Shown here: positions 3,042 through 41,405 of the stretch, piece after piece
Position numbering within the stretch: position 1 is the first letter of the stretch
Layout of the letters: each line of letters begins with the position of its first letter
Origin: a virus
IMG/VR virus record: IMGVR_UViG_3300043431_000434
Span: 1-59,460 of that record
Strand: one strand, 5' to 3'
Length of the DNA: 59,460 bases
Made by a program: the position numbers and the translations under genes
The notes under the pieces: model-generated
The model's database searches: none
What the model was told of the DNA's origin: nothing
Seen by the model: the letters and a program-made list of their open reading frames with translations, nothing else

Positions 3042-3402
3042 TGTTGATTGCTCTCAGTGGGGCGGCAGGGGTAGGTTTTTCAAATAAATCGGTTTGGCTT
3101 AGCGGGTACACCGACAAATCACCGTCTTTACTGACACACATGGGCGTGTTGGTCAGATTCGCTTCAGTGGCTTTACCGCGCATAGTAGGCCGCTCAAATG
3201 TCCATTGATGCTCAACATTCACCATGTCGCTATCTTCGCCCAGGCGGGTCAGGGTAAAGGACAGGTTTACTTTGCCTTTTTTGCCTTTATCGCCGTGGTT
3301 AATAACGCCTAGCGCGACCTGCTTTAACACATGATCGACTTGTTGCAAAAATACCCCGGCGTTAAATTCGCCCAAAACTTCTTCGATGGTTGGTTTGGTC
3401 AT
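3031..3402 (-). CDS. Conserved phage hypothetical protein
   Basis: 123 residues from the ATG at 3402, which has GGAG upstream. The frame is open to 3543, but the added residues look like non-coding translation. The protein has an N-terminal helix (TIEEVLGEFNAGVFLQQVD) and beta-rich middle strands (VNLSFTLTRLG, VNVEHQWTFERPTMRGK). Proteins of this design often sit next to YfdQ/DUF2303 in phage early operons. Function unknown. Confidence 0.75.
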   Translation of the reverse strand: MTKPTIEEVLGEFNAGVFLQQVDHVLKQVALGVINHGDKGKKGKVNLSFTLTRLGEDSDMVNVEHQWTFERPTMRGKATEANLTNTPMCVSKDGDLSVYPLSQTDLFEKPTPAAPLRAINNGN

Positions 3403-3496
3403 GATTGCTCTCCATTGGGAGTGAAAGGAAAGGAGCCGCCCGCCTGAATCGCCCGACAGGCAAAAAGGCAATAAATGAACAGGACGGGCAGCATAA

Positions 3497-3685
3497 CTAT
3501 TTAGTCTCATCGCCTTTGCGGCGCGTAAATGGCACGACGACACCGGCTTGTTTGCGCCGGTCGGCGAAGGTTTGGGCGATAAACTGGGTTAAATAATCCT
3601 CAGTCGTCATGTTGAGATTACCCGACTGCCAGTTTATAAAATCCATCACATCATCCGGTAAGCGGCCTATCTTGATTTCTGGCAA
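3497..3685 (-). CDS. Small hypothetical protein, TTG start
   Basis: 62 residues if started at the TTG at 3685, which has AAGGAG 6 bases upstream. An in-frame ATG exists at 3802, but that start would place an intrinsic terminator (3710-3736) inside the gene, and the translated extension looks random. The mature sequence (IGRLPDDVMDFINW, TTEDYLTQFIAQTFADRRKQAG, then a basic tail) is helical, with a length and charge like a small DNA-binding or Arc-like protein. It is the first gene after the cro terminator, the position of an antiterminator or regulator in lambdoid phages. That role is a guess from position only. Confidence 0.55.
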   Translation of the reverse strand: MPEIKIGRLPDDVMDFINWQSGNLNMTTEDYLTQFIAQTFADRRKQAGVVVPFTRRKGDETK

Positions 3686-3709
3686 ACCGCACTCCTTTAC
3701 TTGCTTTAC

Positions 3710-3736
3710 AAAAAAGTCCCGCGAGGGGTGCGGGAC
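3710..3736 (-). terminator. Intrinsic terminator after cro
   Basis: On the minus strand the sequence forms GTCCCGC, a 7-base loop, then GCGGGAC, followed directly by six T residues. This is a textbook intrinsic terminator. It lies between cro (3853-4065) and the rest of the leftward early operon, so read-through or antitermination is needed to reach the replication genes. Confidence 0.85.
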
Positions 3737-3852
3737 AGCCGTTTCACGACAAAATAAGAATGCCCACCAGCGAGGGCGCAATGGCAACAAGGAAACCATC
3801 ACTAGCGGAAGGTGCTGGTGAGCATAGCCGGGGACGATAGCTAACCAGGCAG

Positions 3853-4134: not shown

Positions 4135-4728
4135 ATGAGTTTACAACTAAGATTACGCGAACTATTTGCAGAAAACCCTGAATTAAAGCCAGGGCAAGTG
4201 GCGAAAGCGATTGGCGCGACACGCACCTCAATGGGAGACTGGTTAAGTGGCAAAACAAAATACGCCACACCGGTTCATGCGTTAAGCCTAGCGAATTTTT
4301 TTAAGGTAAATTTAACCTGGTTAACGACGGGGGAAGGGGAGAAATATGTTAAGGATAACGAAAAGATAGGTAATTTATCTCACGTAAAACCTGAAAATGT
4401 ACATAAAAATTTACACGATTTGTTAGTTGAAAATACTAACTTAACGTCTAAGCTTGCTAGTGCTAACACGCAATTATCATCTAGCAACGAGGAAACTATG
4501 TCGTTTGAATTACTGCAAAATATGTACGGCGTTGAAAGGCCTAGCGTCATCCATGCCATTAGCTTACTGTTATCACTCCGTAATGCGATGGATAAAGACA
4601 AACAAGTAGCGGATGCGATCAAAGCCCTAGCGTTAGGACTTGATAACACCCGCTATAAAATTGTAATTAATGAGGTTGCCGGTGATGTGGCCACCCAACC
4701 GCAATCAATTACCGAGAAAACGTTTTAA
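4135..4728 (+). CDS. Phage repressor (HTH, no S24 peptidase)
   Basis: 197 residues. An N-terminal XRE-type HTH is clear at about residues 17-62 (LKPGQVAKAIGATRTSMGDWLSGKTKYATPVHALSLANFF), ending in the common NLTWLTTGEG motif. In LexA/CI-like repressors an S24 serine-lysine peptidase follows; here the C-terminal 110 residues are helical with no AS|G cleavage site or catalytic Ser/Lys motif. RecA-driven self-cleavage is therefore unlikely and induction probably uses another route. There is no ribosome site before the ATG, so the transcript may be leaderless or weakly translated, as with CI from PRM. Confidence 0.8.
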   Translation: MSLQLRLRELFAENPELKPGQVAKAIGATRTSMGDWLSGKTKYATPVHALSLANFFKVNLTWLTTGEGEKYVKDNEKIGNLSHVKPENVHKNLHDLLVENTNLTSKLASANTQLSSSNEETMSFELLQNMYGVERPSVIHAISLLLSLRNAMDKDKQVADAIKALALGLDNTRYKIVINEVAGDVATQPQSITEKTF

Positions 4729-7173: not shown

Positions 7174-7834
7174 TTATTTGGATTTTGAACCGGAAGCCGC
7201 TGAGCCTATCGTACAAGCCCCGGCGACGTTGGCCTATACCGAAGACAAGGGCGAATTCATGGCGCGGCGAGCCGGTAAAATTACCGCGTCTAAGATTACC
7301 GACATGTTGGCGGAAGGTAAGGGATTAACCCGCGATAAGTACAAAATGCAACTCGCTATTGAACGGATCACCGGCCAGCCGGTTCGTGGTGGCTTTGAAT
7401 CCCGCGCTACTCGGCACGGCAATGCCGCCGAAAATGAAGCGATTGACCTGTATAGTTTCCAATATGACGTTGATATTGAAAAAGTAGGTTTTGTGTCTCA
7501 CCCCAACTTAGCATTTGCCGGGTGCAGTCCTGATGCCCTAGTTAATTCGGATGGCATGGCGCAAGTTAAATGTCCCGATCAACATACCCATTTAACGTAC
7601 TGGATCGAGCACCAAGTACCCCGCGAGTATGTATTGCAGCAGCAGTGGGAAATGGCGTGTACGAATCGGCTATGGTCAGATTTTGTTTGCTATGATCCTG
7701 ATCAAATCCCAAAACTTAGACTGTTGGTTATCCGCGTTATGCGCGACCAGGCAATGATTGACAAGCTAGAAGCCGCCGCCACCGTGTTTAACCACGAAAT
7801 TGAAAAACTTGTAACTTTATTGAGGACATTGTAA
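7163..7834 (+). CDS. YqaJ/lambda-type exonuclease with altered motif
   Basis: 223 residues, the usual size for lambda-type alkaline exonucleases, which degrade one strand to prepare DNA for annealing by RecT/Bet. Visible motifs: RRAGKITAS (residues 35-43), HGNAAENEA (E90), AGCSPDALV (D124) and QVKCPD (K136). The metal-binding Glu of the usual E-x-K motif is Gln at position 134 (codon CAA). Gln occurs there in some PD-(D/E)XK enzymes, so activity is possible but not assured. It overlaps the DUF1351 gene by 11 bases and touches the recT start by one base. Confidence 0.85.
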   Translation: MLLDYLDFEPEAAEPIVQAPATLAYTEDKGEFMARRAGKITASKITDMLAEGKGLTRDKYKMQLAIERITGQPVRGGFESRATRHGNAAENEAIDLYSFQYDVDIEKVGFVSHPNLAFAGCSPDALVNSDGMAQVKCPDQHTHLTYWIEHQVPREYVLQQQWEMACTNRLWSDFVCYDPDQIPKLRLLVIRVMRDQAMIDKLEAAATVFNHEIEKLVTLLRTL

Positions 7835-8796
7835 TGAGTACCGCCTTAGCAAAATTAACCGAAAATCTGGCAACATCATTTTCTTTGGATGCCGGAAATT
7901 CTAAAGAACTACTCGACACGCTCAAAGCAACTGCCTTCAAGATCAAGGAGGGCGTAGTCTCTGATGCGCAAATGACTGCGCTCATGATTGTGTCACAGCA
8001 ATACGGTTTAAATCCCTGGGTAAAAGAAATTTATGCTTATCCTGACAAGCAAAACGGTATTGTCCCGGTAGTGGGTGTGGATGGCTGGATCAGAATTATT
8101 AACCAGCATTCGCAATTTGATGGCATGGAATTTCACTATGCGGAAGAAATGAAAACCCCGCCTGGTGGCAAGCCTTGTCCGGTTTATATTGATTGTATTA
8201 TCTATCGCAAGGATCGGGTACGCCCCACCGTCGTACGTGAATACCTTGACGAAGTGTATAAGGAATCACAATACAAATCGCCCTGGCAAACCCACACCAA
8301 GCGATTTTTACGGCACAAAGCCCTTATTCAATGCGCCCGTATCGCGTTTGGTTTTGTCGGTATTTTCGATCAAGACGAAGCAGAGCGTATTGTCGAAGGT
8401 GAAAAAATCATTAACCCCTTACCCGAAGTCGCCAATATCATCACTGCGCAAATGCTGGTCGATAAAATTAAAAACATGACTGACGCTCAGCTTACCCCGG
8501 ATGCCCTACGTGAGCTGGATTTAAAAACCTACACAGACGAAGAAAAACGCATGATTCGTGGCGAAATTACCCTGCGCCGTCGGGCTTTAAAAGAGGCGGC
8601 AGTTGTCGCAACTCAACCCCCCGAACCAAGCCAGCCGGATGCTGAAGACAACAAATGGCAACAGTTGATTGATAATGCGACATCAACTGATGAGCTAATG
8701 TCGGCATACCACAGCATCCCCGAAGAGCTAAGACCGACCTATTTAGAAGCGGTAGAACTGAAAGAGGATTTATTGCGGTCGGTTGGTAAGCCATGA
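7834..8796 (+). CDS. RecT/Bet family annealing protein
   Basis: 320 residues. The RecT/Bet core is clear: TALMIVSQQYGLNPWVKEIYAY (about 49-70), VVGVDGWIRIINQH, an FHYAEEM strand, and KSPWQTHTKRFLRHKALIQCARIAFGFVGIFD (about 149-180). It anneals complementary single strands and partners the exonuclease encoded just upstream. The C-terminal ~100 residues form a charged, less conserved tail, where such proteins often carry partner-binding sites. Confidence 0.9.
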   Translation: MSTALAKLTENLATSFSLDAGNSKELLDTLKATAFKIKEGVVSDAQMTALMIVSQQYGLNPWVKEIYAYPDKQNGIVPVVGVDGWIRIINQHSQFDGMEFHYAEEMKTPPGGKPCPVYIDCIIYRKDRVRPTVVREYLDEVYKESQYKSPWQTHTKRFLRHKALIQCARIAFGFVGIFDQDEAERIVEGEKIINPLPEVANIITAQMLVDKIKNMTDAQLTPDALRELDLKTYTDEEKRMIRGEITLRRRALKEAAVVATQPPEPSQPDAEDNKWQQLIDNATSTDELMSAYHSIPEELRPTYLEAVELKEDLLRSVGKP

Positions 8797-10387: not shown

Positions 10388-10630
10388 ATGCCTGGATTAA
10401 TTTTTTATGACGAAATCAAGCAAGCTTTGTTTCCCAATTTGGATGAAGAAAAGCGTAAAAACATTCGTTTGTCTCGTGTCGAAAAAGCGTTAGCTAAACG
10501 AGGTTTGCCGTTCGAGTATGGCGAAAATGGCGTATTTGCCATGCAGGACTCTTGGGTAAGAAAAATAGCTGGCTCGGAAGAAAGCAACATAATTGATGAG
10601 CCAATACGTTTTGTAAGGAAAGCAAAATGA
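10388..10630 (+). CDS. Hypothetical protein between xis and int
   Basis: 80 residues, basic overall. IRLSRVEKALAKRGLPFEYGENGVFAMQDSWVRKIAG looks like a short helix-turn-strand DNA-binding domain, but no named family was recognised. Its last four bases overlap the integrase start, which indicates translational coupling and a possible role in integration or excision. Confidence 0.6.
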   Translation: MPGLIFYDEIKQALFPNLDEEKRKNIRLSRVEKALAKRGLPFEYGENGVFAMQDSWVRKIAGSEESNIIDEPIRFVRKAK

Positions 10631-11775
10631 CCCCCCCACCTGGCGGCAGGAAACGCCATGCTAATAACTATCCATCACACATCAAGCCGGAATTGATCCC
10701 GGAAAATGTTTCCTATAAAGCCAAGGAAGGTTATTGGCGGATTGCGTATTATGACGATGACGGCAAACGTCGGTTTAAGCGTTTATGCGGTAAAGCCGCG
10801 ACCCTAAGCCAAATTCACCAGGCCGTCGAAGCCTTAAAAATACATACCGTTGTTTGCTTTAAATCGTTATCAATTGAATTCCAAAAATCTCACGACTGGC
10901 AGGAATTAGGTCGCCATACCAAGCGCGACTATCTGGCTTGTCATAAAATGATTTGCGAAGCTGGCGATGGCAAGGTGTTATTTGGCGATATTCCCTATAC
11001 AAAATGGAAGAAGTCAACAGTCTTAAACTATCGCAATTTCCGTGGCGAAGAATCGAAATCAAGAGCTAACAAAGAGCTGTCGTATATTAAACGGGTTTTA
11101 TCGTGGGCAAAGCTGTATGAATTTATCAAAGATAATATTGCCGATGGCGTACCTAAATTAACAGTGCCGCCACGCCAGCATTATGCTGAAGACACTGATT
11201 TTAATTTTTTGATTCAGGTCGCCCGCGAGTCAAATTATTGGTACATGCCGTATGTATTGGAATTAGGCTACGAATGTCGAATGCGTTCAATTGAAATATT
11301 AGAAATGACCGATGCTAATGAAACGGCAGAAGGGTTATTAATTAATCGGCATAAAGGCTCAAAAAACAATATAACGTTATGGAATGATAATCTGCGCAAA
11401 ACCTGGGATGAAGCCAAAGCTAAACGCAATGCAATATGGGCAATGCGTAAACAGCCAATTCCATTTGAACCGGAAAACAGGTTTATTTTCATTAGTGAAC
11501 GCACCGGCAACCCTATTAATGAACAAGGTTTACAAACTGCAAAAACCCGGATTAGCAATTTAGCTAAAAAGAAGGCGGAACAGTTAGGAATAAGGTATAT
11601 CAATTTCACCATTCATGACACCAAGCGCAAAGGGGTGTCGGATACTGAGGGTGATAAATTAGCCGCATCAGGACATAGATCATTACAAATGCTGAATGTC
11701 TATGACGTTTCCAGGCCAAAGGTAGAATCAACACGCGGCAGCAAAAAAGCAAAAAAGGATTGCGATGAAAAATGA
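10627..11775 (+). CDS. int: Tyrosine integrase
   Basis: 382 residues. The catalytic set is visible: R220 (CRMRSIEIL), K246 (HKGSKN), H330-x-x-K333 (HDTKRKG), H350 (SGHRS) and Y359 (NVYDV). The second arginine of the usual HxxR box is Lys, a known variant in phage integrases with a HDxKRKG box. The first ~60 residues include an arm-binding-type strand set (YWRIAYYDDDGKRRFKR), followed by a core-binding domain. attP begins 130 bases downstream. It catalyses site-specific insertion at a host tRNA gene. Confidence 0.92.
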   Translation: MTPPPGGRKRHANNYPSHIKPELIPENVSYKAKEGYWRIAYYDDDGKRRFKRLCGKAATLSQIHQAVEALKIHTVVCFKSLSIEFQKSHDWQELGRHTKRDYLACHKMICEAGDGKVLFGDIPYTKWKKSTVLNYRNFRGEESKSRANKELSYIKRVLSWAKLYEFIKDNIADGVPKLTVPPRQHYAEDTDFNFLIQVARESNYWYMPYVLELGYECRMRSIEILEMTDANETAEGLLINRHKGSKNNITLWNDNLRKTWDEAKAKRNAIWAMRKQPIPFEPENRFIFISERTGNPINEQGLQTAKTRISNLAKKKAEQLGIRYINFTIHDTKRKGVSDTEGDKLAASGHRSLQMLNVYDVSRPKVESTRGSKKAKKDCDEK

Positions 11776-17905: not shown

Positions 17906-18379
17906 TTAAACCAATCCTACTTTATAGTGTGTCTTGCCATTAAATTTAACCGCTGTCAGCAGTTGTTTGCGGGGCTTATCGGCTAAACCGACATGTACCC
18001 AGCCATCCGGCGGAAACTCATTAATAATTTGATCTATCTCTTCACCAAACCTAAGTTGAATAAACTGGGCGAGTTGTTTATTAGCCATGCCTTTCACCTC
18101 AATATCAGCCGCTTGGCCGCGCAAATGGGCACTGGTACGGCTACCGCCAACCGCTTTATTTACGGCAGGATTACGATAAACCGATAACACGGATATGGGG
18201 GTTGGTTGGCCCAAGTGATCAGATAGGGCATTGCGCAATCGCTGTAAAAACCAGGCCATATTGGCTATGTTTTGCTCGATTTCTGCCGATTCAGGCGTGT
18301 TCGCAATACCACGCCGTATCGCGGTATTTGAGCGCAACATTTCTGCGCGGGTAAAATTGGGTGGGTATTCAAACGTCAT
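17906..18379 (-). CDS. Endolysin, M15A-type peptidase
   Basis: 157 residues. The Peptidase_M15_3 pattern is clear: SVYRNPAVNKAVGGSRTSAHLRGQAADI with H85 and D92, a catalytic Glu at about 121 (IINEF), and WVHVGL with H129. These bind zinc and cleave peptide bonds in peptidoglycan. There is no signal peptide, so a holin is needed for export. It overlaps the preceding membrane gene by 11 bases and is followed directly by the i-spanin-like gene. Confidence 0.9.
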   Translation of the reverse strand: MTFEYPPNFTRAEMLRSNTAIRRGIANTPESAEIEQNIANMAWFLQRLRNALSDHLGQPTPISVLSVYRNPAVNKAVGGSRTSAHLRGQAADIEVKGMANKQLAQFIQLRFGEEIDQIINEFPPDGWVHVGLADKPRKQLLTAVKFNGKTHYKVGLV

Positions 18380-19011: not shown

Positions 19012-22000
19012 CTAGTTAAACGCCTCATGGCTCCGTTGCACTGCCTTCCGCACCACGGCATTTGATTTCAGCATCGTTTCATCAATCAATTGACGTTTTT
19101 CTTCTGGTGATTTGTTGCTTCTATAAATCACATCAATTTGTTTACGTAACTCACTGACTGTTTTACCTGTTTTGGTTAGCTCTTTTTTAAATTTAAGCTT
19201 GTCGGCATACTGTTCGGTTAAGGCCTTCGCCTTATCCTCTGCGCCTTCTTTCTTGTAGGCGTTGATCGTCTTGCTGATCTGGTTAACTTCATTCAGCATG
19301 TCATAAAACTGAGTGCCATATTTGGTATTTAAAGCCGGGGTTTGCTGGTAGAACGCTTTTAGCACGGGGTATTTATCCACCCTGGTTTCTGGCAATTCCG
19401 GCATGTCAGACGCATTCCTGACCAATAAATCAGTCGCCCCCAGGACATACATGCCCATTGCCCCTAAATAGCCGTGCATTAAATGCTCAAGACGCTTAGG
19501 GGATGCGCCCAAGGCTTCAGGCAGGGCTGCGCTAAGTGCCCGCATGGCTTCTGAAGTATGTTCGTTGTACCTGGCACTCGGCAATTTACCCTCATCGGCC
19601 ATACCCTCAATAGGTCGTCCGGTGAACATATCCTTATTCGCGTACAGTTCCAGGAAAGGTCTAAATAGCTGCGGAACTGGGTTGAATGCCAAGGTATCGC
19701 CTGCACCTGCACCCATTCGGGCGGCGTATTCTTTCACGGTGTCCTTGCCCAACAATAACCGGGCCGACCGTTCGGGCACCGTGCCAAACAATAACCCTAA
19801 CTCAAACGGTTTAGGGAGCCGGAAATGACTATCCCCAAAGAAAAAATGCCAGTATTGGTCTTTGTCCCAATCTTCCAATTCCTCATAACGGTCATCATCG
19901 GCGTTAATCGCGAGCAACGCTAGGGTTAACATCGTCATCGAGGCCGCTTTCATCAGGATCAAGCGTTGGGCTTCTTTGGTCTTGCCTGCTTTGGCCAAGC
20001 GGTACAAGCCCACCAACCGCGCATTAAAGAACGGCAACATGTCGCCAAGTGCCCGGACAATGGTAAACGATCCCTGCATGGAAAAATCCATCAAATCTTT
20101 GGCTTCAAACAGGTATTGGGCTTTTTCATTGCCCGCTCGTTTTGATACTTCCAAAGTCGCCTCACGGCTGGCATTTTCTATAGCATCACCGATAGAGCGG
20201 TACATTTCCCAGTATTTGCGCGGGGTGTCGATAATTGAATCCTGAAACCCTTTAATATCGCCGATGCCTTTTTTACGCAAAATAGCATCCATTGCGCTAC
20301 GAGCATTATCGGCATTGTTGTAATTGCCATAACCGCCCTGGAACGAGGCCCCGGCAAACATCATGTCGATATATCCCCCGTCCTCTTTGAACGATTTCAC
20401 CGCGCCGTGGATAGAATCAATACCCAATTTAAAGCCTTTTTCCTCGGCAATCAGCCAGGAATGGAACGAATCCCGAATAAAGTTACGCGCCATAAACGTG
20501 GGATCAGCCGTGACCGCGCCGGTCAGCAAGCGTTTGAAATATCGCATGGGCTTGAAGATACCGCCCAATTCAGTTTGATTGACGGCGGCTAACGAGGTCA
20601 GCAACATAGCATCATTAATTTTGAAATACTCGGTCTTGCCGCCACGCATCACTCGCACGGTGTCAGGATCGGTCGGCGCACGTACCGCCCACATTTTGGC
20701 AATACCTTCGGTCACGCTGGCTGGCATAGCATCGACCAGTTCTTTGGGTAAGCCGGATTCACGCAATAGCTTTTTGATTTGGTCTTTGGGTATTAATGCG
20801 CTGGTAAATTCCACCCGTGGCACTCGTTCAACAAAGCGCGAACCGTCCAGATTGGTCAAGGTTTTATTGAGGGCATTATTTTTCATTGAGGCATCAATCA
20901 AATGCGCCCAATTCTGCATCATATTGCCCAAAGGATCGGATAAGGGGTTATCACCACCCTTAAGCAGTTTAATACCGGATGTTTGATGGCTTAGACCACC
21001 TTTTTTACGAGGCCCACCACTGGCTTTATCTTCCATCAGGCGATAAAACGGGATGTAATCACTATGCTCAAACACCGCCCGCGCCTCTTTATCCACCAAG
21101 CCGGACGCTTCCGCCAGGTCTAAAATGGCCTTATTCATGTCGGCAATACCCTTAGCAACTTCCTGGTATTCAGGCTTTTCCAGGTCAAGTAAGGCTTGAA
21201 TTTCAGCGGCGGTAAAGTTGTTTTCTTTACCTTCACCCATCAACCGGTTGGCACGTCGCCCCACCATCCAGGCGGCAAAGTTTTCCAGGTCGTGTTTAAC
21301 CGGCTGTAAAATTTCTAACAAACCTTTGGAACCCTCTTTTTTCTGGATAATGCCCTTACGCAGTTCAGGCGCACCAAATTGCAAGACTGCCGCTATTGTT
21401 GAGGTGGAACCGGTCGAAAACCGTGCGCCAACATAGCCAGATTGGGAATGGGCGATATCGCCTAAAATTTCCTGCTCGGCGAGTTTGATCCCTAAAAAGC
21501 GGTCGAAAATACCTTGTTCAAGCAGGGGTTTGACCTCTTCCCAACGTTCTTTCATCGCTTCGGCATTGGTTTTAAAGCCTTGGTTTACAATCGCCTTGAT
21601 AGTCTCTGGCAGGTTCTTTTTCTTACCAAACCCGGCCTTGCGCTTGGCTTCGGTTAAGGGGTCGCCAATCGAATATTTTGTGCCGTCTAAACTTTCAGAA
21701 GCTTTTTGAAAGTTTTGTGAAACATGCGCAGTATCTGGGTTTGAGCCATATTTCCCGTTGGTAAAGCGTTCAGAAGTTTGAAAGTTTTTGGAAGTTTCAG
21801 TATTTAAGCTTGACTTTGCAATGGCCGCCAAATCGGCCACGCTGAATGAATTCAGGTTAAAACCGTACCGGAACAAGGTCGCACGGATCAAGGCAACCAA
21901 ATCCCGAACCGCTTTTTGCACCGCTTCGCTTAAGGATTGCGGTTTTGCGGCATAGGCTTCCAGTAAGTAGCTTTGGAATTCTTCAACTTGTAGGTCTTTT

Positions 22001-25000
22001 TCGGTATTTGCTTGGGTGACACGCCGCCAGGCCTCACGCTCAGCTACCGTGCCTTTGCCGTTTTTAACCCGCTCAATTGCTGCCTGGAATTGGGCATCAA
22101 TCACGTTAAGCCTGGTTTGCACATTAGCATCAGTGTCACGGGCAAAATGCCAGCTTTCATGACCTAACACCTGTTGTACCTGGTCTTTGCTGCCTAAATT
22201 ATCCGCTACTAGGGTAATCACGCCTTTATCATAGAAACCTTGGGCGCGATTACGACTATGCGATTGGATAACCTTGAGCTTACCCTCGGCCATGAGTTTT
22301 TGTTGACGAGTGGTTAAGTAACCCTTAACAACTGCAATACTGGAACCGGATGCCGGTTTTTCCTGGCTAAACAGCGGCAAGCCTTCGGTAATAAGCTTTT
22401 GGCGCATGGCTGGGGTGAGGGTGAAGCCGGGTTGAACCCTATCACCCTCTGCTTTCCCTTTCTTATAAGCAAGCACAGCCATGTGATAACTACCGGCATT
22501 ATCAAAATCATCAGCTTTGGGCATCGTTGAAGGGGTGAAGTTGATCCCCTCAACCTTACCCCCACCCACTTTTTTCAGGATGTCATTGGCGACCTGGGGC
22601 ACAATCTTGTCGTAAAAGGCTTTCATGCCTTCGCCGCCAGTTTTCAAATCCAATCCTGACAGTTTCATCCAGTCACGGTAAGCCCCGCCTGTTTTTTCGC
22701 CTTCGCCAGCCTCTATTTTTTTGGCAATGTCCTTTCCGAACACTTCCTCGATTCTTTTAAGGTCGATTTCGTCTTCATTGAAAACCTTGTTTCCATTAAC
22801 ACTGGTGGCGTTTACTTCATACAATCCAGCCGATCCTTCAATAGGTTCGTATTCAATGGATTCGATCTGTTTCCGAAGGTCGTAAAGGTCTGCCGATTGT
22901 TCACCCGTCGCAAACGCGATCCGGTCAAAGCCGTTTTGGGCGGCATGAAGCATCATGCGCTTGATGGCGAGGGCTACCCAGGCTTTGGTGTCGGTGACAA
23001 AGGGGGCGGGTTCTAATCCGATAAGTTTTGCACTTAGAGTCTTGCCAACCCCAGCATCCTTAAGTTCGCTTAGTCTTTTTTCTTGTTCAGAGCTTAACCC
23101 GCCTGCCCACGATTTTTTGTTTAGGTCATGAAGTTCGGTTTCTTCATCAGTCAACTTGTCGGTTGATTTAAACCCCTTCCGCTTACCCTCCTGCCCCCAA
23201 TCGCTCTGGATTTCCTGGATGAAAAGCACCTTGTTGCCGTCAGCGTCGGTGCGTTCGTCATATCTGATATGCGCCAGGACGTTGGGCTGATCCCAGTGAG
23301 AGGATTTATATTGAGTTACATCTTTTGGAGGATACTCACGCTGATATTCGGCAAGAGCTTTAATTCTTTCCGCTCCATAGTCATAGTCATATCCTTTTGC
23401 TTTTAACCAATCTGTAAATAAAGGTGCTTTGGCATCATTATCCAAGATACGACGACTTATAAAAGGCAACGTCAGCAACAACTCTTGATAATTCTCGCCG
23501 CCGGGGACGGTGTATTGGGCGTATTTGGTTTCACCATCAGCACTACCATTTTGTTGTGACCAGCCATCTTCTGCTTCACGATTTAAATAATCCCACGCAT
23601 CTTGCTCTGTCTCAGCATCAGTTATTTGTTTACTATTAAATAGTTCGCCAGTCCACGTACCATCATCATTCTCGTAAACGCTCGGTTCACCAGCAAGATA
23701 ATAGTCTTCTTTGGTACTTCCATATTTATCAACACCACTTCTAAGCACCACTTCCTCAACCTGCACCCCACCCTGATCCAGATAGGCCAGGATGTCGGCC
23801 TTGCTGACCTTGGTTTTATCCTGCAAATCCAGCCAGTCCAGGATGCCACTAAAGTTCAGCTCATCTTTTTTGATTTGTAGCTTGTCAGTATTGGATTGCA
23901 GCCATAATTTGACGTTTTTGCCGCTGGTGTTGTCCAGTTTGGGCGGCAGGTTAGCAATGGATCGCTTCAGTTGTGAGTAGAAGCCGGGGGTACTCGCTAT
24001 GGAATACTTGAGGTCATTCACCACCACTACACCATTAACGACGTATTTGTCGCGCATTGCGGCAATATTGGCTTTGTGTGCGTCAAGCTCGGCCACCCTG
24101 GCTTGCTTATCCGCTTCCAGTTGCGTTAAATCCCGCTTGAGTTCGTCAATGCGCTTGGTGTTTTTGGCTTTTTGTTCGGCCATCCTGGTTTTAAAATCAG
24201 CAATGGATTTCGCCCGTTGCTTGGCATCTTGGTCTTCATATTTTGGGGTAGGCCGGGTATCTATACCCCGGTTTGCCTCGGTGTAATCGTCCAGGTTTTT
24301 GGTGGCTGATTTAATCCGCTTAGCTAGGTTTGAAATGGCTTTTTCAATCACGTTTGATTTGGTTGCCGCTTGCGACAAATCACGTTCGACCTCCAATTTC
24401 CGACGCTTGAGCGGGTCTTGTTCCAGTTCAATTGCCGCATCATACGCATTCGGTGCTTCTTCACCTCTGACATCGGCGGTATCGCTCGACTGGTCTTTCC
24501 AAAACACGTCGTTAAAACCCTGTTTACCGGCAATAATGCGGTAACTCATGGCATCAAACGTGCCGGGTTGGTTAAACGTATGGACGCGCACCTCTGGATA
24601 ACGGTTGCCTTGCCTCACACCCCTATTGGTACGTTGTTCGATTTCATCCGGGCGATAGGGGATGTCAAGTTGATAAATATCGGTCGTATTGACTTGCAAA
24701 TCCACGCCAACACCCAGTTTTGACGTATTGCCGACCAATACCTTGATCTTGCCCTCGTTGTAATAGTCCATGATGCGTTGCAGCATTTCAGGTTTGGGCG
24801 CACTGTTTGACACATTACCGGTGTCTGGGTTTGAAAACGCGCCACCATTGATAAATACCACTTGTTTGCCGCTCAGGCCGGTGGCTTTCATCACTTTAGC
24901 GCGAATGTCCTCATGGGTTGAACCTTTGCCGCCTGGGTATTTCAACCGGTCGATAAAGATAAGTTGGGTAGCATCTGGATCGGCTTTAACCTGTTCGGTC

Positions 25001-28000
25001 ACCAGTTGCACGGTTTTGGCTATCTTGGAATAATCGGCGCGGGTTTCTTCTTCAATAAGCGTTCCAGGGGGAACAATGGTGCTTCTTGAGGTTGGCGTGT
25101 ACAGCCTGACATCGACGCTGGCATCCCGCCCCGCTGTATACATTTGGATCACGGTTTCAGCATCTTGAATTCTCTCCCCTCGCAACTTGGCTTTGCCGTC
25201 TTCAATGGCCCGCAGTAACCGTGCCTGAATATCGGCAAAAATAGCCTCAGCGGTTTCGTTGCGTAAAATGGTGTGCTGGATGTTGATTTCTTTCGGGCGC
25301 ACCAAGTCGGCTGCGGCTTCAGGTGGCACATAATCGACATAGCGGCTGATTATCTTTTTCAAGGCATCAATGTTTTTGATTCCGGTCAACTGCGGGCGCA
25401 TCTTATTCGTGCCATCAACACCCATTTCCTCGACTTGGTTGACATCCAAAAACTCACCAACAAAATCACCGACATTAGTGATCCCGTACTCGTCCAGGAT
25501 GTGGGTATCCAGGTGATGCAACAAGGTCATTAACTCTAATGGTTTGTTGGGGGTTGGGGTGCCAGTCAGTAAAAACACGTTGTTGCCGTTGTTTTTCTCG
25601 GCAATATAGCGGGTTTTAAACCTAAAATCGTACGAGCGGGCACTGCCCAAAGTGACGGTTACCGGGTCTAGGGTTTTATCCTGGTTGCCGTCTTTGTCTA
25701 CCGGATAGGTGGCGGTAATTGCCACATTGGCACCGAGACCGCCTTTGGCATCTTCCGATTGCATCCCGATATTTTTGTAATACTGCACTTCATCAGCAAA
25801 CACCGCATCAAAGCCCAGCTTGCCCATGTCAAAACCAATATCGTCGCCAAATGTTTTCATCATGCTGGCTTTCAGCATCCTGATTTTGGCTAGTCGCTGC
25901 TCTTTGGCTTTAATCTGGCTTTTGGTCAGCTCTTCATCATCTTTTTCCATGCTGGAAATGCTTTCTACCAATTCTTCGGTAAAATCCCCTAACACCTTAC
26001 GCGGAATCGTGAATTTTTGTGCCAGGTTGGTACTGATAAAGGTGTAGTCATAGCGGTTGTTGGTCAGGTCAAAGATCATCTTTTCTTTGTCTTCCGCCGT
26101 CAACGCTGGCCAGTCTTTAGGCTTACCCTTGTTAATGCCGGTGGCATACTTGGGGAACTCAAACACATTGGCGTTCGGGTACAGGTCGCGGGTGGTCTTT
26201 TCCCATTGTGGAATGGTGTTGGCTGGGACGATGAATAACGGCTTTTTCATCACGCCTTTTTGCAACAATTGATCAGCCACCACGATGGCAGTCGGGGTTT
26301 TACCCAAGCCTGGGGCAAACGCTAACACGCCTTTTTTGTTATAAATCGCCCGTTCTGCACCCTGTAACTGGTGTTTCATGAGATTAAACGGCTTGCCCCG
26401 GAATGTTTTTGGCAAATTCTTGAGTGAACGACCATCAAAAACCGGTGCCGCAAAGAAATTTTTGGCGCGGTTGTAGGCATCGACGACCTCATCTGCCAAA
26501 CCATCATCAATGAGTTTTTGCTTGATAAGCGGAATCGCCTCGTTGTTCAACAGGTTTTGGGCTTCTTTCAAACGTGCGGCAAATTCTTCCGCCGTTTCAT
26601 CCTTACCCACTTTTATCAACGGCAGGTGATTGACGAAATTGGTAAACAAATACAGCAATTGGTTGTCGTCAATGGCATTTTCACCAATGATGACCGTGCC
26701 GTCGCGCTGTACTTTTTTACCGATTGACGCGATAGCACTGGGTGGTAACCAGTTTTCCCGGCCGGTAATTGAAATGGCTTTGATCGGTATTAATGGGGGC
26801 TTGATGCTTTGCAGTTTGGCGATTTGTTTATCGCGCTGTGCCGCAGGGCGAATCTTGGCCGCTTGATCCAGCTTTTGGTAAATATTGCCCGCATAGTACA
26901 GCCGTGCGTTTTGTAGTTGGCTATTGCTGGCCTTGGCATAATCGCCGGAATCCAGTAAATCCTGGATTTCATCAGCGGATAACAAGCTGTTTTCGAGTGG
27001 CAGTAAGCCGTCTTGATCTTCTAACGATTCAGCCCTATCTAACAGCGGTGAATTTTCATCAATTTCAATTTTGCCGCTACCTTGAAAGCGCACTTGTTCC
27101 TTGAAAATCCCACTGAGGTTGTAATCCTTGTCAAACAAAGCCAGGTATTCTTTAAGCTGCCGTTCGGCATGTACCGATTTAACCCAAACCATCAGCAATT
27201 TATCGTTGTGCGGATTTTGACCGAATTTTTCCTCGTACTGTTGCACAGCTTCGGCAGTTGGCTTGTCATGGATTGCCGCCAAGGCCGCTAGTTTATCCGC
27301 ATTTTTACCGGTAGCCTTGCGCCCGAATGCGCCTTGGCCTTCAAAATTGGTGTAGGTGACCAGTTTGTCGTAGATGATTCCGTCGGCGAAAAACGGCTTA
27401 TCGACGTGACCAGGCTCAAACTTAAGCCCATGCTTTTCGGCGTAGGCCCTAGCGTCTAACGGTTCGGCAAACTCACTCTGCTCGGCCTTCTGGTTGCTGG
27501 TGTAGTCCTGGGGTTCCAGCTTCATCTTGCCATAGTCAGCCTCGCCGGTCACGATCCAGCCGACCTTGCCCATTGACGTTTTGTTTTTGCCAATGCTCAA
27601 GTCACCCAAAACCGAATCTGGGTAATCAACAAAATACTGGTTGATAGGGTAGCCGTCTTTGCTGGTGACAGCGGCAAACGCCTGGTTTTTCTCCGGCTGC
27701 TTGCTGTCCACGCCTTCAGGCCGCTTTTGCAGGAAAATGACATCAATCATCACTTCCGTGCTGGCATTGGCCTTTTGCGTCCCCATAGGCAAGCGGAATG
27801 CGCCAATCACGTCCACTTGCTTGACCAGGGTTTGCCTAAGCAAAGCCGCCTCGCCGGTGCCGTCCATTGTGCCGGTCGAAGTCATGAACGCCATGACCCC
27901 GCCGGTTTTCAGTTTATCGACCGATTGGGCAAAGAAAAAGTTATGGATAGCCTTAAACGCGGGTTTAATCGTGCCTGCATGTTCCCGCGCCAGGGATGAG

Positions 28001-30456
28001 AACGAGGCAAACGGTACGTTGGAAATGATGGTATCGAAATTTTTGCCGGGAAAAGTCTCGTAGGATTCGTTGAAAACCTTTGCTTTGGGATAGAGCCGCT
28101 TGACTATTTCAGTATTGGTCTGGTCAATGTCAACTGCCGTCCAGTCAGCGTCCGGGTACATCCCGATAAAGTTGCCGCTGCCGACTGACGGCTCCAAGGC
28201 TTTGCCGACTTTAATCCCGGCGGCATCCAGGGCTGCATAGATTTCCCGGATCGTGGTGTAATCGGTGTAATGCTGGTTAAAAATACTGGCTCCCTTGTCC
28301 TGGGATGCCTTGACATCAAGCCCACCGTTACCGGTGTGTTGGCGTAGGATGTCTTTATCAGCTTCGGTGATGTCTTCGACTGGCTTCTTTAGGATTTGTT
28401 CGGCCAGATTATTGATGTCCCTGCGTTTGGCAGGGGTTAACGCAATATTAGGTTTGTCCCTTAAATCATAATTAGTTGGTTCAGCATGTCCTGGTAGGTG
28501 TCCGTGTCTGCCAGTACCCCCCCGGATAGGTCGTTGAGTACCGACATCGGCTTGCTGTCCGGCCATTGGCTCGGTGGCGGGTAACCCATTTCCTGCGCGG
28601 TCGCCTGTATCAGTAGTGTCAACTGCTTCCGATCCTGTGCGTACTGCGCTTCCACGTCGGTTATTTGGGCGCGGGTTAGATGCGCCGAATTCTTGATCTG
28701 GTATTCCAGTTGAATCAAGCGTTGTGTCAGTACCTTCAATACCATTTTCTTTTCTGCCTTGTCCACCATCACCCCCTAAATTTTCCTGATTTTTAACATA
28801 ATTCTCTGAGGTTGGGTAGTCGTTTGATTGCATATTTTGGTTAATACCATAAGCCTTGGCCACAAACTTGGCCTGGTCTTTTAGCCAACGCACCAGATCA
28901 TTGCTGTTCAAGCTGGCTTTGTGCCAATTATTCGGCGCACTGGTAACCAAGCGATTATTGTCTAACGTGTTATTGCCTACCCGCGCCATGATCGCTATGC
29001 CTTGCGGGTGCCGGTCGCCATTAATACCGCGCAGTGATGATGCACCGATGCTGACATAAATACCCACCCCGTCTTTTTGCATCTTTAACGAGACATCACC
29101 CGACACAGCGGGGCCTCCTTCATTTACCGATACCGGTTTTTCGGCTTTGCCTTTGCGGTCGTTGTAGGGGCTAAAGCCGTCTTCTTGTAACAACATGGCA
29201 ACGTGATACAAGTATTTTTTGGTATCGTCCAGGAAGGCATCTTTTAACCCACCTTTTAGCCCATAATCCGTGTCTTGGTTCTTGCCGCCTGCAATCGGTG
29301 CCCAGCCGTCAATATGACCAACCCCCCAGTCAGCCTTTAACTGACGATCAGCCCTGGTTTTTGTCGTAGTTTTAACGGTCGGCGGGGTGCCTACCGCTTC
29401 TTTCACCTGCGCCATGACTTTCGGGGTCAATAAATCCTGGTGTTGCGCTCTAGCCAGTGCCGCACCGGTCATCCCTTCAGGGTCTATGCCCGGATAAGCC
29501 CGCGCACTCTCATAGAAGGACAATAGGTAAGGCTTGATCTTGTCGCCAAAGTCCTCAATCATCGCCTCTGAATACGCCGCGAATGATTTGACACCCGATT
29601 CGATATACGCCCCAGCAATAGTCAAGCCATCTAAAGCAAATTCGGGATCAAAACCGCTATTTAACGTGCCGAGTTTGGCTTTTAACCGCGCACGAGCGGC
29701 GGCTACCTTGTCGGCAGTAATAATCGTGTTGTTGGCGAATTGTTGCTGGTCTTTTTGGCTGATTTCACCGATGCCTTGGGGTTTGCCTTGCTCCGCCTGG
29801 AGTTGTTCAATCACCTCGTCAATAACTTCCGCCATTGGCGTGTAATTGCCATATAAACTCTGCGATGCTTGTTCCAGTAAGTGAATATGGTTGCGCGAGT
29901 CCTTGTTGGCGTTCCGTTCCTGAATCACTGTGCGTAGAATTTGCTTGGCACGCGTTTGTGGCTCCCCACGACGGGAAAAGCGGGTATCGTCGCTGTTTTC
30001 GATCTTGTCCAGCAATTGTTGCAAGCGTTTTGTTTGGGCATTTGACTGATCTCGAAGCGATTTATCTTCTTCAATACGCGCCTTAAGCTCATTCTCGCTA
30101 ATCGACTTTAGTCGCTCATTGAGTTGATTAAGGTTGATCCTTACCGTAATATTTTGATCACCTTCGTAAATATCATCTTCAACCCACCAAGTATTTTCAC
30201 CATCGGAATCAGAAAAGGCTTCGTTTTTCTTGGCAATCAACTTACCTTTGGCTGGCTTCGGTTGTTGACTTAAATAAACCGCCTTGGCCTCGGCTAAAAT
30301 TTGGGCCTCAGTATCACGCAGTTTGGCGATGGACTGCTCCGCCCTGGCAATATAGACCGCATTTAAACCACCATAATTTGATGACTCTTTTAAAGCGTCT
30401 TTTTTTAACGCCAATTCAGTGTCTTTATCGTCAAAAATCTCAAAACAATTTGCCAT
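19012..30456 (-). CDS. Giant polyvalent protein (MTase, helicase, protease, LPD38-like)
   Basis: 3,814 residues in one frame. Recognisable parts in order: a helical start; N6-adenine methyltransferase-type domain (~690-900; EPSVGSGNF at 755, SNVPF at ~808); SNF2-type superfamily-2 helicase (~1340-2000; Walker A GLGKT with K1386, DEVQ at 1555, LTGTPTPN, QRTNRGVRQG at ~1941); coiled coil (~2010-2180); a conserved polyvalent module (~2380-2520, NVLAHIRYDERTDADG, IQEIQSDWGQEG); a zincin with HESWH at 2766-2770; and an LPD38-like C-terminus (TADPTFMARNFIRDSFHSW). Phage polyvalent proteins of this type, including P1 DarB, travel in the virion and protect incoming DNA or remodel the host. Here the order suggests co-injection. 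The start has only a weak ribosome site, 4 bases after the preceding gene. Confidence 0.85.
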   Translation of the reverse strand: MANCFEIFDDKDTELALKKDALKESSNYGGLNAVYIARAEQSIAKLRDTEAQILAEAKAVYLSQQPKPAKGKLIAKKNEAFSDSDGENTWWVEDDIYEGDQNITVRINLNQLNERLKSISENELKARIEEDKSLRDQSNAQTKRLQQLLDKIENSDDTRFSRRGEPQTRAKQILRTVIQERNANKDSRNHIHLLEQASQSLYGNYTPMAEVIDEVIEQLQAEQGKPQGIGEISQKDQQQFANNTIITADKVAAARARLKAKLGTLNSGFDPEFALDGLTIAGAYIESGVKSFAAYSEAMIEDFGDKIKPYLLSFYESARAYPGIDPEGMTGAALARAQHQDLLTPKVMAQVKEAVGTPPTVKTTTKTRADRQLKADWGVGHIDGWAPIAGGKNQDTDYGLKGGLKDAFLDDTKKYLYHVAMLLQEDGFSPYNDRKGKAEKPVSVNEGGPAVSGDVSLKMQKDGVGIYVSIGASSLRGINGDRHPQGIAIMARVGNNTLDNNRLVTSAPNNWHKASLNSNDLVRWLKDQAKFVAKAYGINQNMQSNDYPTSENYVKNQENLGGDGGQGRKENGIEGTDTTLDSTGIPDQEFGASNPRPNNRRGSAVRTGSEAVDTTDTGDRAGNGLPATEPMAGQQADVGTQRPIRGGTGRHGHLPGHAEPTNYDLRDKPNIALTPAKRRDINNLAEQILKKPVEDITEADKDILRQHTGNGGLDVKASQDKGASIFNQHYTDYTTIREIYAALDAAGIKVGKALEPSVGSGNFIGMYPDADWTAVDIDQTNTEIVKRLYPKAKVFNESYETFPGKNFDTIISNVPFASFSSLAREHAGTIKPAFKAIHNFFFAQSVDKLKTGGVMAFMTSTGTMDGTGEAALLRQTLVKQVDVIGAFRLPMGTQKANASTEVMIDVIFLQKRPEGVDSKQPEKNQAFAAVTSKDGYPINQYFVDYPDSVLGDLSIGKNKTSMGKVGWIVTGEADYGKMKLEPQDYTSNQKAEQSEFAEPLDARAYAEKHGLKFEPGHVDKPFFADGIIYDKLVTYTNFEGQGAFGRKATGKNADKLAALAAIHDKPTAEAVQQYEEKFGQNPHNDKLLMVWVKSVHAERQLKEYLALFDKDYNLSGIFKEQVRFQGSGKIEIDENSPLLDRAESLEDQDGLLPLENSLLSADEIQDLLDSGDYAKASNSQLQNARLYYAGNIYQKLDQAAKIRPAAQRDKQIAKLQSIKPPLIPIKAISITGRENWLPPSAIASIGKKVQRDGTVIIGENAIDDNQLLYLFTNFVNHLPLIKVGKDETAEEFAARLKEAQNLLNNEAIPLIKQKLIDDGLADEVVDAYNRAKNFFAAPVFDGRSLKNLPKTFRGKPFNLMKHQLQGAERAIYNKKGVLAFAPGLGKTPTAIVVADQLLQKGVMKKPLFIVPANTIPQWEKTTRDLYPNANVFEFPKYATGINKGKPKDWPALTAEDKEKMIFDLTNNRYDYTFISTNLAQKFTIPRKVLGDFTEELVESISSMEKDDEELTKSQIKAKEQRLAKIRMLKASMMKTFGDDIGFDMGKLGFDAVFADEVQYYKNIGMQSEDAKGGLGANVAITATYPVDKDGNQDKTLDPVTVTLGSARSYDFRFKTRYIAEKNNGNNVFLLTGTPTPNKPLELMTLLHHLDTHILDEYGITNVGDFVGEFLDVNQVEEMGVDGTNKMRPQLTGIKNIDALKKIISRYVDYVPPEAAADLVRPKEINIQHTILRNETAEAIFADIQARLLRAIEDGKAKLRGERIQDAETVIQMYTAGRDASVDVRLYTPTSRSTIVPPGTLIEEETRADYSKIAKTVQLVTEQVKADPDATQLIFIDRLKYPGGKGSTHEDIRAKVMKATGLSGKQVVFINGGAFSNPDTGNVSNSAPKPEMLQRIMDYYNEGKIKVLVGNTSKLGVGVDLQVNTTDIYQLDIPYRPDEIEQRTNRGVRQGNRYPEVRVHTFNQPGTFDAMSYRIIAGKQGFNDVFWKDQSSDTADVRGEEAPNAYDAAIELEQDPLKRRKLEVERDLSQAATKSNVIEKAISNLAKRIKSATKNLDDYTEANRGIDTRPTPKYEDQDAKQRAKSIADFKTRMAEQKAKNTKRIDELKRDLTQLEADKQARVAELDAHKANIAAMRDKYVVNGVVVVNDLKYSIASTPGFYSQLKRSIANLPPKLDNTSGKNVKLWLQSNTDKLQIKKDELNFSGILDWLDLQDKTKVSKADILAYLDQGGVQVEEVVLRSGVDKYGSTKEDYYLAGEPSVYENDDGTWTGELFNSKQITDAETEQDAWDYLNREAEDGWSQQNGSADGETKYAQYTVPGGENYQELLLTLPFISRRILDNDAKAPLFTDWLKAKGYDYDYGAERIKALAEYQREYPPKDVTQYKSSHWDQPNVLAHIRYDERTDADGNKVLFIQEIQSDWGQEGKRKGFKSTDKLTDEETELHDLNKKSWAGGLSSEQEKRLSELKDAGVGKTLSAKLIGLEPAPFVTDTKAWVALAIKRMMLHAAQNGFDRIAFATGEQSADLYDLRKQIESIEYEPIEGSAGLYEVNATSVNGNKVFNEDEIDLKRIEEVFGKDIAKKIEAGEGEKTGGAYRDWMKLSGLDLKTGGEGMKAFYDKIVPQVANDILKKVGGGKVEGINFTPSTMPKADDFDNAGSYHMAVLAYKKGKAEGDRVQPGFTLTPAMRQKLITEGLPLFSQEKPASGSSIAVVKGYLTTRQQKLMAEGKLKVIQSHSRNRAQGFYDKGVITLVADNLGSKDQVQQVLGHESWHFARDTDANVQTRLNVIDAQFQAAIERVKNGKGTVAEREAWRRVTQANTEKDLQVEEFQSYLLEAYAAKPQSLSEAVQKAVRDLVALIRATLFRYGFNLNSFSVADLAAIAKSSLNTETSKNFQTSERFTNGKYGSNPDTAHVSQNFQKASESLDGTKYSIGDPLTEAKRKAGFGKKKNLPETIKAIVNQGFKTNAEAMKERWEEVKPLLEQGIFDRFLGIKLAEQEILGDIAHSQSGYVGARFSTGSTSTIAAVLQFGAPELRKGIIQKKEGSKGLLEILQPVKHDLENFAAWMVGRRANRLMGEGKENNFTAAEIQALLDLEKPEYQEVAKGIADMNKAILDLAEASGLVDKEARAVFEHSDYIPFYRLMEDKASGGPRKKGGLSHQTSGIKLLKGGDNPLSDPLGNMMQNWAHLIDASMKNNALNKTLTNLDGSRFVERVPRVEFTSALIPKDQIKKLLRESGLPKELVDAMPASVTEGIAKMWAVRAPTDPDTVRVMRGGKTEYFKINDAMLLTSLAAVNQTELGGIFKPMRYFKRLLTGAVTADPTFMARNFIRDSFHSWLIAEEKGFKLGIDSIHGAVKSFKEDGGYIDMMFAGASFQGGYGNYNNADNARSAMDAILRKKGIGDIKGFQDSIIDTPRKYWEMYRSIGDAIENASREATLEVSKRAGNEKAQYLFEAKDLMDFSMQGSFTIVRALGDMLPFFNARLVGLYRLAKAGKTKEAQRLILMKAASMTMLTLALLAINADDDRYEELEDWDKDQYWHFFFGDSHFRLPKPFELGLLFGTVPERSARLLLGKDTVKEYAARMGAGAGDTLAFNPVPQLFRPFLELYANKDMFTGRPIEGMADEGKLPSARYNEHTSEAMRALSAALPEALGASPKRLEHLMHGYLGAMGMYVLGATDLLVRNASDMPELPETRVDKYPVLKAFYQQTPALNTKYGTQFYDMLNEVNQISKTINAYKKEGAEDKAKALTEQYADKLKFKKELTKTGKTVSELRKQIDVIYRSNKSPEEKRQLIDETMLKSNAVVRKAVQRSHEAFN

Positions 30457-39798: not shown

Positions 39799-40836
39799 TT
39801 AATTACCCGACAACAACTTAGCTTGTTGCTTGGCGTTTAGCGTTTGCTGCCTTTGGTACGCGGCCACTTCAGCGGCAGTCGGCTCCCGGCTTTGCGCCCC
39901 GCCAAAGGTCGAACCGGTACTAACGTTGTTCATTTTGTCGGCGTATTGCTGTTTTTCAAAATTCAACCGGGCTTGGTCAATCTGGGCAGAATTCTTGCCA
40001 GACAAATAATTGCCAACCCCCTGCAAGCCACCAGCGATGACTTCCGGCTTTTTTAGGAAATCAAAAAAACTGGGGGATTGTGGTGCGGTTGCACCTGCCC
40101 CGACATTAGCCCCGACATTGGCCCCTGGGGTTGCTGTGGCGGCGGCTGCACCAACACCAGCACCTACCGTATCGCCCACCATTGGCGCGGCAGTTTGTAA
40201 GGCGGTTGGCGCGGCTGACGACAGGGCACCAGCGGCATGTTGCGTGGCTTGCATCGCCCCATTGCCCAATAGGTTAGTCATGCCTTGTCCACTTGCACTC
40301 ACTGCCCCATGTATTAACGGGCTTGAGGCTGTTTGTGCAGCTTGCTGAGCGGCAATTTGTCCGGCTTGTGGCCCTGTGGCTAATAAACCATTAATCGCCG
40401 CACTGCCAGATTGCCCCACTGCGGCTGCGCCACCACCTGCTGCGGCGGTAGCATCTGCCGCTACCCCGGCTGCGGCTGCGGCTGATCCGGTAGTGGCGGC
40501 GGTAACGGCTGGGGCCAATACACTGACACCCAATGCGCCTACCCCACCGGCCATACCCACCATACCGCCGATGCTCATCAGCTCTTTATCGCCGGTTACT
40601 GCGCCCACCACTGTCATCGCCAAACCCGACACGGTAGCAATAGTCGATAAGGCTGAAACGGTAGCAACTGCCGCCGTACCAATCGCGGCGGCGGTGCCTG
40701 CTGCGGCTGCGGCACCAATCGCCGCACCTGCGGTAGCGAGTGCTGAGCCAATAAAAAACGGCATACAACGCCGCTTATCAAGCGGATTACCGGGATTTGA
40801 ATAGTCAAGCCAAGGTTCGGATTTTATGCTGTACAT
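39799..40836 (-). CDS. Ala/Gly-rich internal virion protein
   Basis: 345 residues. The start at 40836 has AAGGA 8 bases upstream; the later ATG at 40764 does not. After a 24-residue polar leader comes a long Ala/Gly/Val region of glycine-zipper type (GSALATAGAAIGAAAAAGTAAAIGTAAVATVSALSTIATVSGLAMTVVGAVTG), able to insert in membranes, then Gly-rich linkers and a C-terminal helical part (DQARLNFEKQQYADKMNNVSTGSTFGG). This is the usual design of ejection proteins such as T7 gp14 or P22 gp20. Confidence 0.7.
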   Translation of the reverse strand: MYSIKSEPWLDYSNPGNPLDKRRCMPFFIGSALATAGAAIGAAAAAGTAAAIGTAAVATVSALSTIATVSGLAMTVVGAVTGDKELMSIGGMVGMAGGVGALGVSVLAPAVTAATTGSAAAAAGVAADATAAAGGGAAAVGQSGSAAINGLLATGPQAGQIAAQQAAQTASSPLIHGAVSASGQGMTNLLGNGAMQATQHAAGALSSAAPTALQTAAPMVGDTVGAGVGAAAATATPGANVGANVGAGATAPQSPSFFDFLKKPEVIAGGLQGVGNYLSGKNSAQIDQARLNFEKQQYADKMNNVSTGSTFGGAQSREPTAAEVAAYQRQQTLNAKQQAKLLSGN

Positions 40837-41405
40837 GATTGATCCTTGTGTCGGATAGAAAGGATTAAACTTAGGCGGTCAAGTTCAGTGGGATTAACTA
40901 CCGAATGGGGAAAACGGTTATCAAATAAAAATAAATCACCCGCCACCCCTTCGTGGCGTTCATCCTCAAAATTAAAAGACTGACCAGGGGCGGATTGCAA
41001 TAGCAACAGGTATTTTGATAAGTAATAATGGCAGTTATGTCCCGAATCTTGATGCCATTTAACCGATTTACCGGCAGGAATGCGGGTAATCAGGCAACCG
41101 CCTAATTCATCACCACTGACCAGGGTAAAAATGTGGTTAATGGTGGCTTTAATGGCTGGCAAGCGGATTACTTCAGGGTACCAAACCGGCTGGTGTTCGC
41201 CATTACAGAATTCCGCCGGATTTAAACTGTCATAATCAAACCAATCCCTAAACCTGAGCCAAATATCCTGGCAATCTTCATGTGGACTGCCCAGCGAGGT
41301 GCGCAACGGGTAGGTGCCCCACAAATTATCATTCAAGCTGAGTTCTTGTAAAATCTCGGCAACTTTGATGCCTTCTAGCACTTTTTGCATCTTAGCCATG
41401 TTCAT
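40824..41405 (-). CDS. 2OG-Fe(II) oxygenase-like protein
   Basis: 193 residues. Motif residues for Fe(II) and 2-oxoglutarate are present: H118-x-D120 (VKWHQDSGHN), H167 (RFPHSVVN) and R177 (DRLSLIL), in the order of aspartyl/asparaginyl-hydroxylase-type enzymes. It could hydroxylate a virion protein or a nucleic acid. It is coupled to the upstream cupin gene by a 14-base overlap and to the ejection gene downstream by a 13-base overlap, so it is part of the structural operon. Confidence 0.75.
   Translation of the reverse strand: MNMAKMQKVLEGIKVAEILQELSLNDNLWGTYPLRTSLGSPHEDCQDIWLRFRDWFDYDSLNPAEFCNGEHQPVWYPEVIRLPAIKATINHIFTLVSGDELGGCLITRIPAGKSVKWHQDSGHNCHYYLSKYLLLLQSAPGQSFNFEDERHEGVAGDLFLFDNRFPHSVVNPTELDRLSLILSIRHKDQSCTA

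Follow-up and report, generated by a model that had tools for sequence, protein, structure and literature searches.

A 3,814-residue DarB-related polyvalent protein encoded among the late genes of an IMG/VR phage

Locus and genome context

The window analyzed is a stretch of 59,460 nucleotides comprising the entire virus record IMGVR_UViG_3300043431_000434, and because it is the whole record and carries a 127-bp direct terminal repeat, the genome is complete. A single gene on the minus strand occupies 11,445 of the 59,460 bases (19.2 %) and encodes a protein of 3,814 residues, in agreement with the original prediction of one gene taking up almost a fifth of the genome. The plus strand of the same interval is full of stop codons, and a chance open reading frame was rejected as the source of the gene, as open frames reached no more than 265 codons when the window was shuffled 20 times. 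Internal repeats in the gene are limited to short pairs of low identity. The features of the genome and of the protein are shown in Table 1.

The late genes follow one another on the minus strand in the order terminase, portal, major capsid, tail proteins, SLT protein, a few small genes, the giant gene and an M15 peptidase. This placement among virion late genes is that of the phage-type polyvalent class, as is the joining of domains of unrelated biochemical type (methyltransferase, SNF2, zincin and LPD38) in one chain, and the gene is a further example of the polyvalent proteins already described (Iyer 2017). The phage is probably temperate, since its genome encodes an integrase, RecT and an HTH protein. 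No phage isolate close by DNA was found by megablast against 50,697 phages. The nearest relatives of individual genes disagree, with the terminase pointing to Synechococcus phages (48 %), the portal to a metagenomic phage (39 %) and the giant gene to Pseudomonas, Erwinia and Aeromonas phages.

Table 1 Coordinates of genes, protein domains and motifs in the 59,460-nucleotide window
Feature	Residues	Position	Strand	Basis or remark
HTH protein		4135-4728		
RecT		7834-8796		
Integrase		10627-11775		
M15 peptidase		17906-18379	minus	Late gene
Polyvalent-protein gene, 3,814 aa		19012..30456	minus	ATG start; stop codon 19012-19014
C-terminal virion-type region	2925-3814	19015..21684	minus	Identity to phage giants
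LPD38 domain	3521-3699	19360..19896	minus	Pfam PF18857, E=1e-47
Zincin metallopeptidase domain	2705-2880	21817..22344	minus	Invariant ligands, AF2 model
Proposed third zinc ligand	E2826	21979-21981	minus	
HESWH	2766-2770	22147-22161	minus	
Module X	2150-2711	22324..24009	minus	Widespread conserved domain
SNF2-type ATPase	~1317-2060	24277..26508	minus	Pfam SNF2-rel_dom and ResIII above cut-off; motif conservation
SNF2 QRTNRGVRQGN motif		24604-24636	minus	
SNF2 LTGTP motif		25555-25569	minus	
SNF2 DEVQ motif	1555-1558	25783-25794	minus	
SNF2 GLGKT motif		26296-26310	minus	
LPD36-like segment (G709-NGG) and adenine-N6 DNA methyltransferase	677-960	27577..28428	minus	PDB profile matches, motif alignment
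Conserved segment N2	217-350	29407..29808	minus	40-64 % identity to relatives
SLT lytic-transglycosylase protein, 1,244 aa		34421-38155	minus	Upstream of giant gene; Pfam SLT above cut-off
Aspartyl/asparaginyl beta-hydroxylase domain		40824-41405		PF05118, E=5e-10; encoded within virion operon
Major capsid		48079-49125	minus	Late gene
Portal		50239-52515	minus	Late gene
Terminase		52762-54105	minus	Late gene

Domain architecture of the protein

Residues 1-216 have no relatives among the loci compared. They are followed by segment N2, whose identity of 40-64 % in the best-aligned stretch is found in very divergent phages that are mostly 20-40 % identical elsewhere. With about 130 residues, N2 exceeds most of the protein's catalytic domains in conservation; it had no match in Pfam or the PDB, and a single-sequence search of viral contigs found nothing. 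The PHROG label "endolysin" was obtained for N2 and for module X, the sole PHROG match of the latter being a giant-protein cluster so labelled, and was rejected because it seems to stem from the annotation of other regions of giant proteins.

The first half of the protein matches phrog_10089, "DarB-like antirestriction" (E=1e-169), and shares with P1 DarB (YP_006479.1) an LPD36-like GxGG motif, a methyltransferase with the motif NVPF and an SNF2 motor, all in the same order. P1 DarB differs in being 2,255 residues long and only about 26-30 % identical, and the sequence compared gave no match to the zincin HExxH, module X or the LPD38-type C-terminus. The LPD36 motif, of the GxGU type, precedes the methyltransferase as TGNGG (residues 708-712), in a column held in common with TGEGG of P1 DarB. 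A 12-sequence profile of the methyltransferase matched BseCI and BsaXI (5e-10), TaqI (2e-7) and EcoKI M (5e-5) in the PDB, and its motif I, EPSVGSGNF, is intact. The SWI2/SNF2 ATPase is fused behind the methyltransferase as in the DarB-like methylase-helicase dyad, with motifs I, II, III and VI of the motor intact. The original prediction of a DNA N6-methyltransferase-type domain, an SNF2-type helicase with DEVQ as motif II and a first half resembling P1 DarB was thus borne out by the PDB relatives, the Pfam match and the PHROG match with its shared domain order.

A zincin domain lies between module X and the C-terminal region. HExxH motifs are expected by chance at 0.06 per shuffled copy of the protein, and across 14 diverse sequences H2766, E2767, H2770 and E2826 were the only invariant columns of the domain. 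The AlphaFold2 model, with a pLDDT of 72 overall and mostly 83-97 at segment residues 50-180, is ordered as an N-terminal helix pair, three strands, the HExxH helix and a later Glu helix, with the ligands on model helices 68-86 and 131-148; the order of helix, three strands, HExxH helix and Glu helix has been described for the zincin-like domains of polyvalent proteins (PMC5512222). Foldseek of the model against the PDB gave non-significant matches throughout, the best to ArdC (E 0.36) and others to selecase (prob 0.51) and, among further entries, to PprI, M61 and SPRTN-type structures, and the similarity of the domain to IrrE, ArdC and selecase is weak. A single-sequence search of viral contigs with the zincin found nothing, and the alignment held no stretch conserved enough for a pattern scan. 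The assignment is therefore supported mainly by the invariant ligands and the predicted secondary structure. A zinc-protease motif HESWH that includes E2767 had been proposed, with structure prediction as a check: HESWH is intact and the numbering correct, the downstream Glu is conserved and the strands and helices come in the expected order, but the fold match reached significance nowhere.

The C-terminal region is 71 % identical in locus L003 and 20-45 % identical in other phage giants; a first scan of genome contigs with it found nothing. The LPD38 match spans the whole profile with a score of 163 against a cut-off of 27 bits, confirming the LPD38-like end anticipated from the sequence, and LPD38 is reported from no proteins other than phage-type polyvalent ones (PMC5512222).

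Module X and related proteins

Module X, the "polyvalent module" of the original prediction, is marked by the sequence SHWDQPN...HIR...FIQEIQSDWGQEG...GGEGMKAFYDKIVP. Alignment-derived patterns located it in at least 545 viral loci and in 144 genome contigs, the latter from Proteobacteria, Bacteroidota, Verrucomicrobia, Acidobacteria, Nitrospirae, Mollicutes, Patescibacteria and archaeal bins, host assignments that are loose since most of the contigs are metagenome bins. Of isolate phages, only 2 records out of 50,697 contain it, and four Pseudomonas plasmids do as well. The median length of open frames with module X, many of which are truncated at locus ends, is 2,711 residues. Eight columns (E2325, R2398, E2415, Q2417, S2418, P2485, A2505 and Y2615) are invariant in 122 non-redundant sequences, and H2387, N2392, H2396 and D2419 are 97-98 % conserved, a pattern of the kind typical for enzymes. 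None of 27 members was covered by a Pfam family, on which ground an ART or a known LPD was rejected, and a 68-sequence profile found nothing in the PDB. Module X is thus apparently uncatalogued in the databases searched (Pfam and PDB) and may equal one of the LPDs of Iyer that are absent from Pfam. In the giant phage protein of locus L012, module X is followed by a Zeta-toxin-like domain (residues 1769-1849, Pfam E=1e-8), and a ddrB-ParB domain is present too.

A tentative reading is that module X is a GNAT-like acyltransferase acting on a host protein. Its predicted model (pLDDT 71, mostly 80-93 in the core) drew GNAT acetyltransferases as most of its top Foldseek matches in the PDB, and some acetyltransferases among weaker matches in BFVD. 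When aligned with 25 GNATs by hhalign, W2493-Y2525 paired with helix 3-strand 5-helix 4 at a score of 23.4 (P=0.019), against 9.5-16.8 in six control comparisons. However, each match is non-significant on its own (Foldseek E about 0.3; hhalign probability 2.4 %), and the PDB profile search was empty. A firm GNAT assignment was therefore judged unjustified, and the comparisons suggest a GNAT-like fold as a lead, not a finding. With like reserve, module X might be an undescribed enzyme family, perhaps divergent GNAT-like, that occurs almost only in giant proteins encoded by uncultured phages or prophages and is delivered into the host as infection begins.

The remaining relatives share different parts of the protein. 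The DarB-like giants of Bcep22-like podophages and their relatives (BcepIL02 gp70, JC1 gp69, PEp14, Itty13 and USP_18) resemble it in N2, which is 56-64 % identical in the best-aligned stretch, in the methyltransferase-SNF2 block and in the late-operon position, but a module X match is absent in those compared. In Itty13 and PEp14 the SLT forms the N-terminus of the DarB-like giant, whereas here it is a separate gene; the split of SLT and giant, with small genes between them, amounts to a gene fission or fusion. The giants phiARM81mr p69, PTXU04 gp25 and that of Vibrio D274 (L036, L037 and L038) align over the C-terminal ~1,070 residues, zincin and LPD38-type region included, at 28-36 % identity, and differ in that the DarB-like half and module X are unmatched in the comparison made. 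These three carry HExxxH, not HExxH, immediately ahead of the LPD38-type C-terminus, and the view of phiARM81mr and PTXU04 as protease-less is ruled out by that motif.

IMG/VR contig L033 and genome contigs L063 and L118 have the methyltransferase, module X and zincin in the order seen here, at low identity and with the C-terminal region not found on the available pieces. Locus L049 shares the methyltransferase-SNF2 block (64 %) and the zincin (38 %), with no module X between them and another end; L051 shares the methyltransferase-SNF2 block (52 %) and the C-terminus (30 %); and L003 shares the zincin and C-terminus, with the methyltransferase-SNF2 block and module X unmatched. The modules of the giant recur in L002, where the zincin lies ahead of module X, and in L017, L020 and L024 the zincin is in a separate open frame beside the module X giant. 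The combination of modules is therefore not unique in kind: the predicted layout held as to its parts, but it is not special, as relatives join the same parts in other combinations and orders.

Proposed role at the start of infection

Proteins of this class have been proposed to be packaged, injected and partly processed by their own zincins (Iyer 2017; PMC5512222). The original reading of a co-injected, DNA-protecting machine that its own protease cuts up is borne out in part and for the most part repeats this published proposal. JC1 gp69, which is DarB-like, was identified by 51 unique peptides in virions purified on CsCl, where only one protein scored higher (PMC9144972), and P1 DarB is a head (capsid) protein that bears an N-terminal packaging signal and is present in about 40 copies (PMC9024508). 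By analogy with these two proteins, there is good support for packaging and injection. From the gene, its modules and motifs, its operon position and its relatives we infer packaging, injection, DNA protection and cleavage, and consider it probable that the giant is a DarB-related late virion protein that is co-ejected with the SLT protein, shields DNA and is cut by its zincin. It would be expressed late, enter the virion together with the upstream SLT protein and be ejected into the host along with the phage DNA. In the cell the SNF2 motor and the adenine methyltransferase would engage the DNA as it enters and keep it from being restricted. Module X would serve as an extra enzyme-like domain and the LPD38 C-terminal region as a virion- or ejection-related part, and the zincin between the halves would probably cut the chain once, at assembly or after entry.

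The SLT protein is a likely ejection-protein partner of the giant, being tied to the same ejection machinery by its position as the N-terminus of the giants in Itty13 and PEp14. Co-injection combined with DNA protection appears likely, given the presence of JC1 gp69 in purified virions, although JC1-type relatives are similar mostly in the first half and not along the whole protein. DNA protection taken separately, for the DarB-like dyad from type I restriction, is plausible, but the way in which DarB achieves it "has not been defined" (PMC11109961), so that methylation as the protective means is not established even for P1, and restriction assays are complicated because plasmid-borne darB DNA itself relieves restriction (PMC11109961).

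Cleavage of the chain by its own zincin near residues 2700-2930 after packaging or entry, which would free the DarB-like half from the LPD38 half, has a chance somewhat below even. Self-cleavage after entry is a published hypothesis with mixed precedent, as P1 DdrB is processed before packaging and the virion RNA polymerase of N4 is packaged in one piece despite its zincin (PMC5512222), the latter also counting against the wider proposal, as do the non-significant Foldseek matches of the zincin. Self-processing is favored by the location of the zincin between the two halves and by its recurrence: HExxH or HExxxH was present in 15 of 15 giants with a related C-terminus, at most 450 residues upstream of it in 10 of them, and a zincin motif occurred in 146 of 194 module X giants compared with 15 of 194 after shuffling. 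Against it, no cleavage site is known and the position between the halves is not fixed, given the order in L002 and the separate frames in L017, L020 and L024.

Those separate frames speak for a zincin that targets host or other virion proteins, or serves packaging, and not its own chain. Host targeting has been given as an alternative by Iyer, and the zincin-bearing region of N4 is needed for encapsidation (PMC5512222). Such a role is nevertheless somewhat unlikely, since the sequence suggests no host target and self-processing accounts no less well for the recurrent place next to the C-terminal region. Motif IV of the methyltransferase reads SNVPF instead of NPPF (NVPF at 28009-28020), so that of the gamma-class NPP(Y/F) the N and F are kept and the first P is V. 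That the methyltransferase is weak in catalysis or binding-only, with protection coming from the motor or from DNA occupancy, is improbable: NVPF is shared with L049, L050, L051 and P1 DarB while several relatives retain NPPF, but motif I and the asparagine are unaltered, and conservation within the NVPF clade is what a working site would show.

For the family, the giant illustrates the swapping of cassettes, in which the SLT is either part of the chain or encoded apart from it, module X is present or absent and the zincin comes before or after module X. Module X matters more than the whole protein, as a domain of 560 residues with eight invariant residues in 122 sequences and a spread over hundreds of viral contigs. 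Occurring also in prophage-type loci of many phyla, it offers an expressible target in the search for a new virion-delivered activity.
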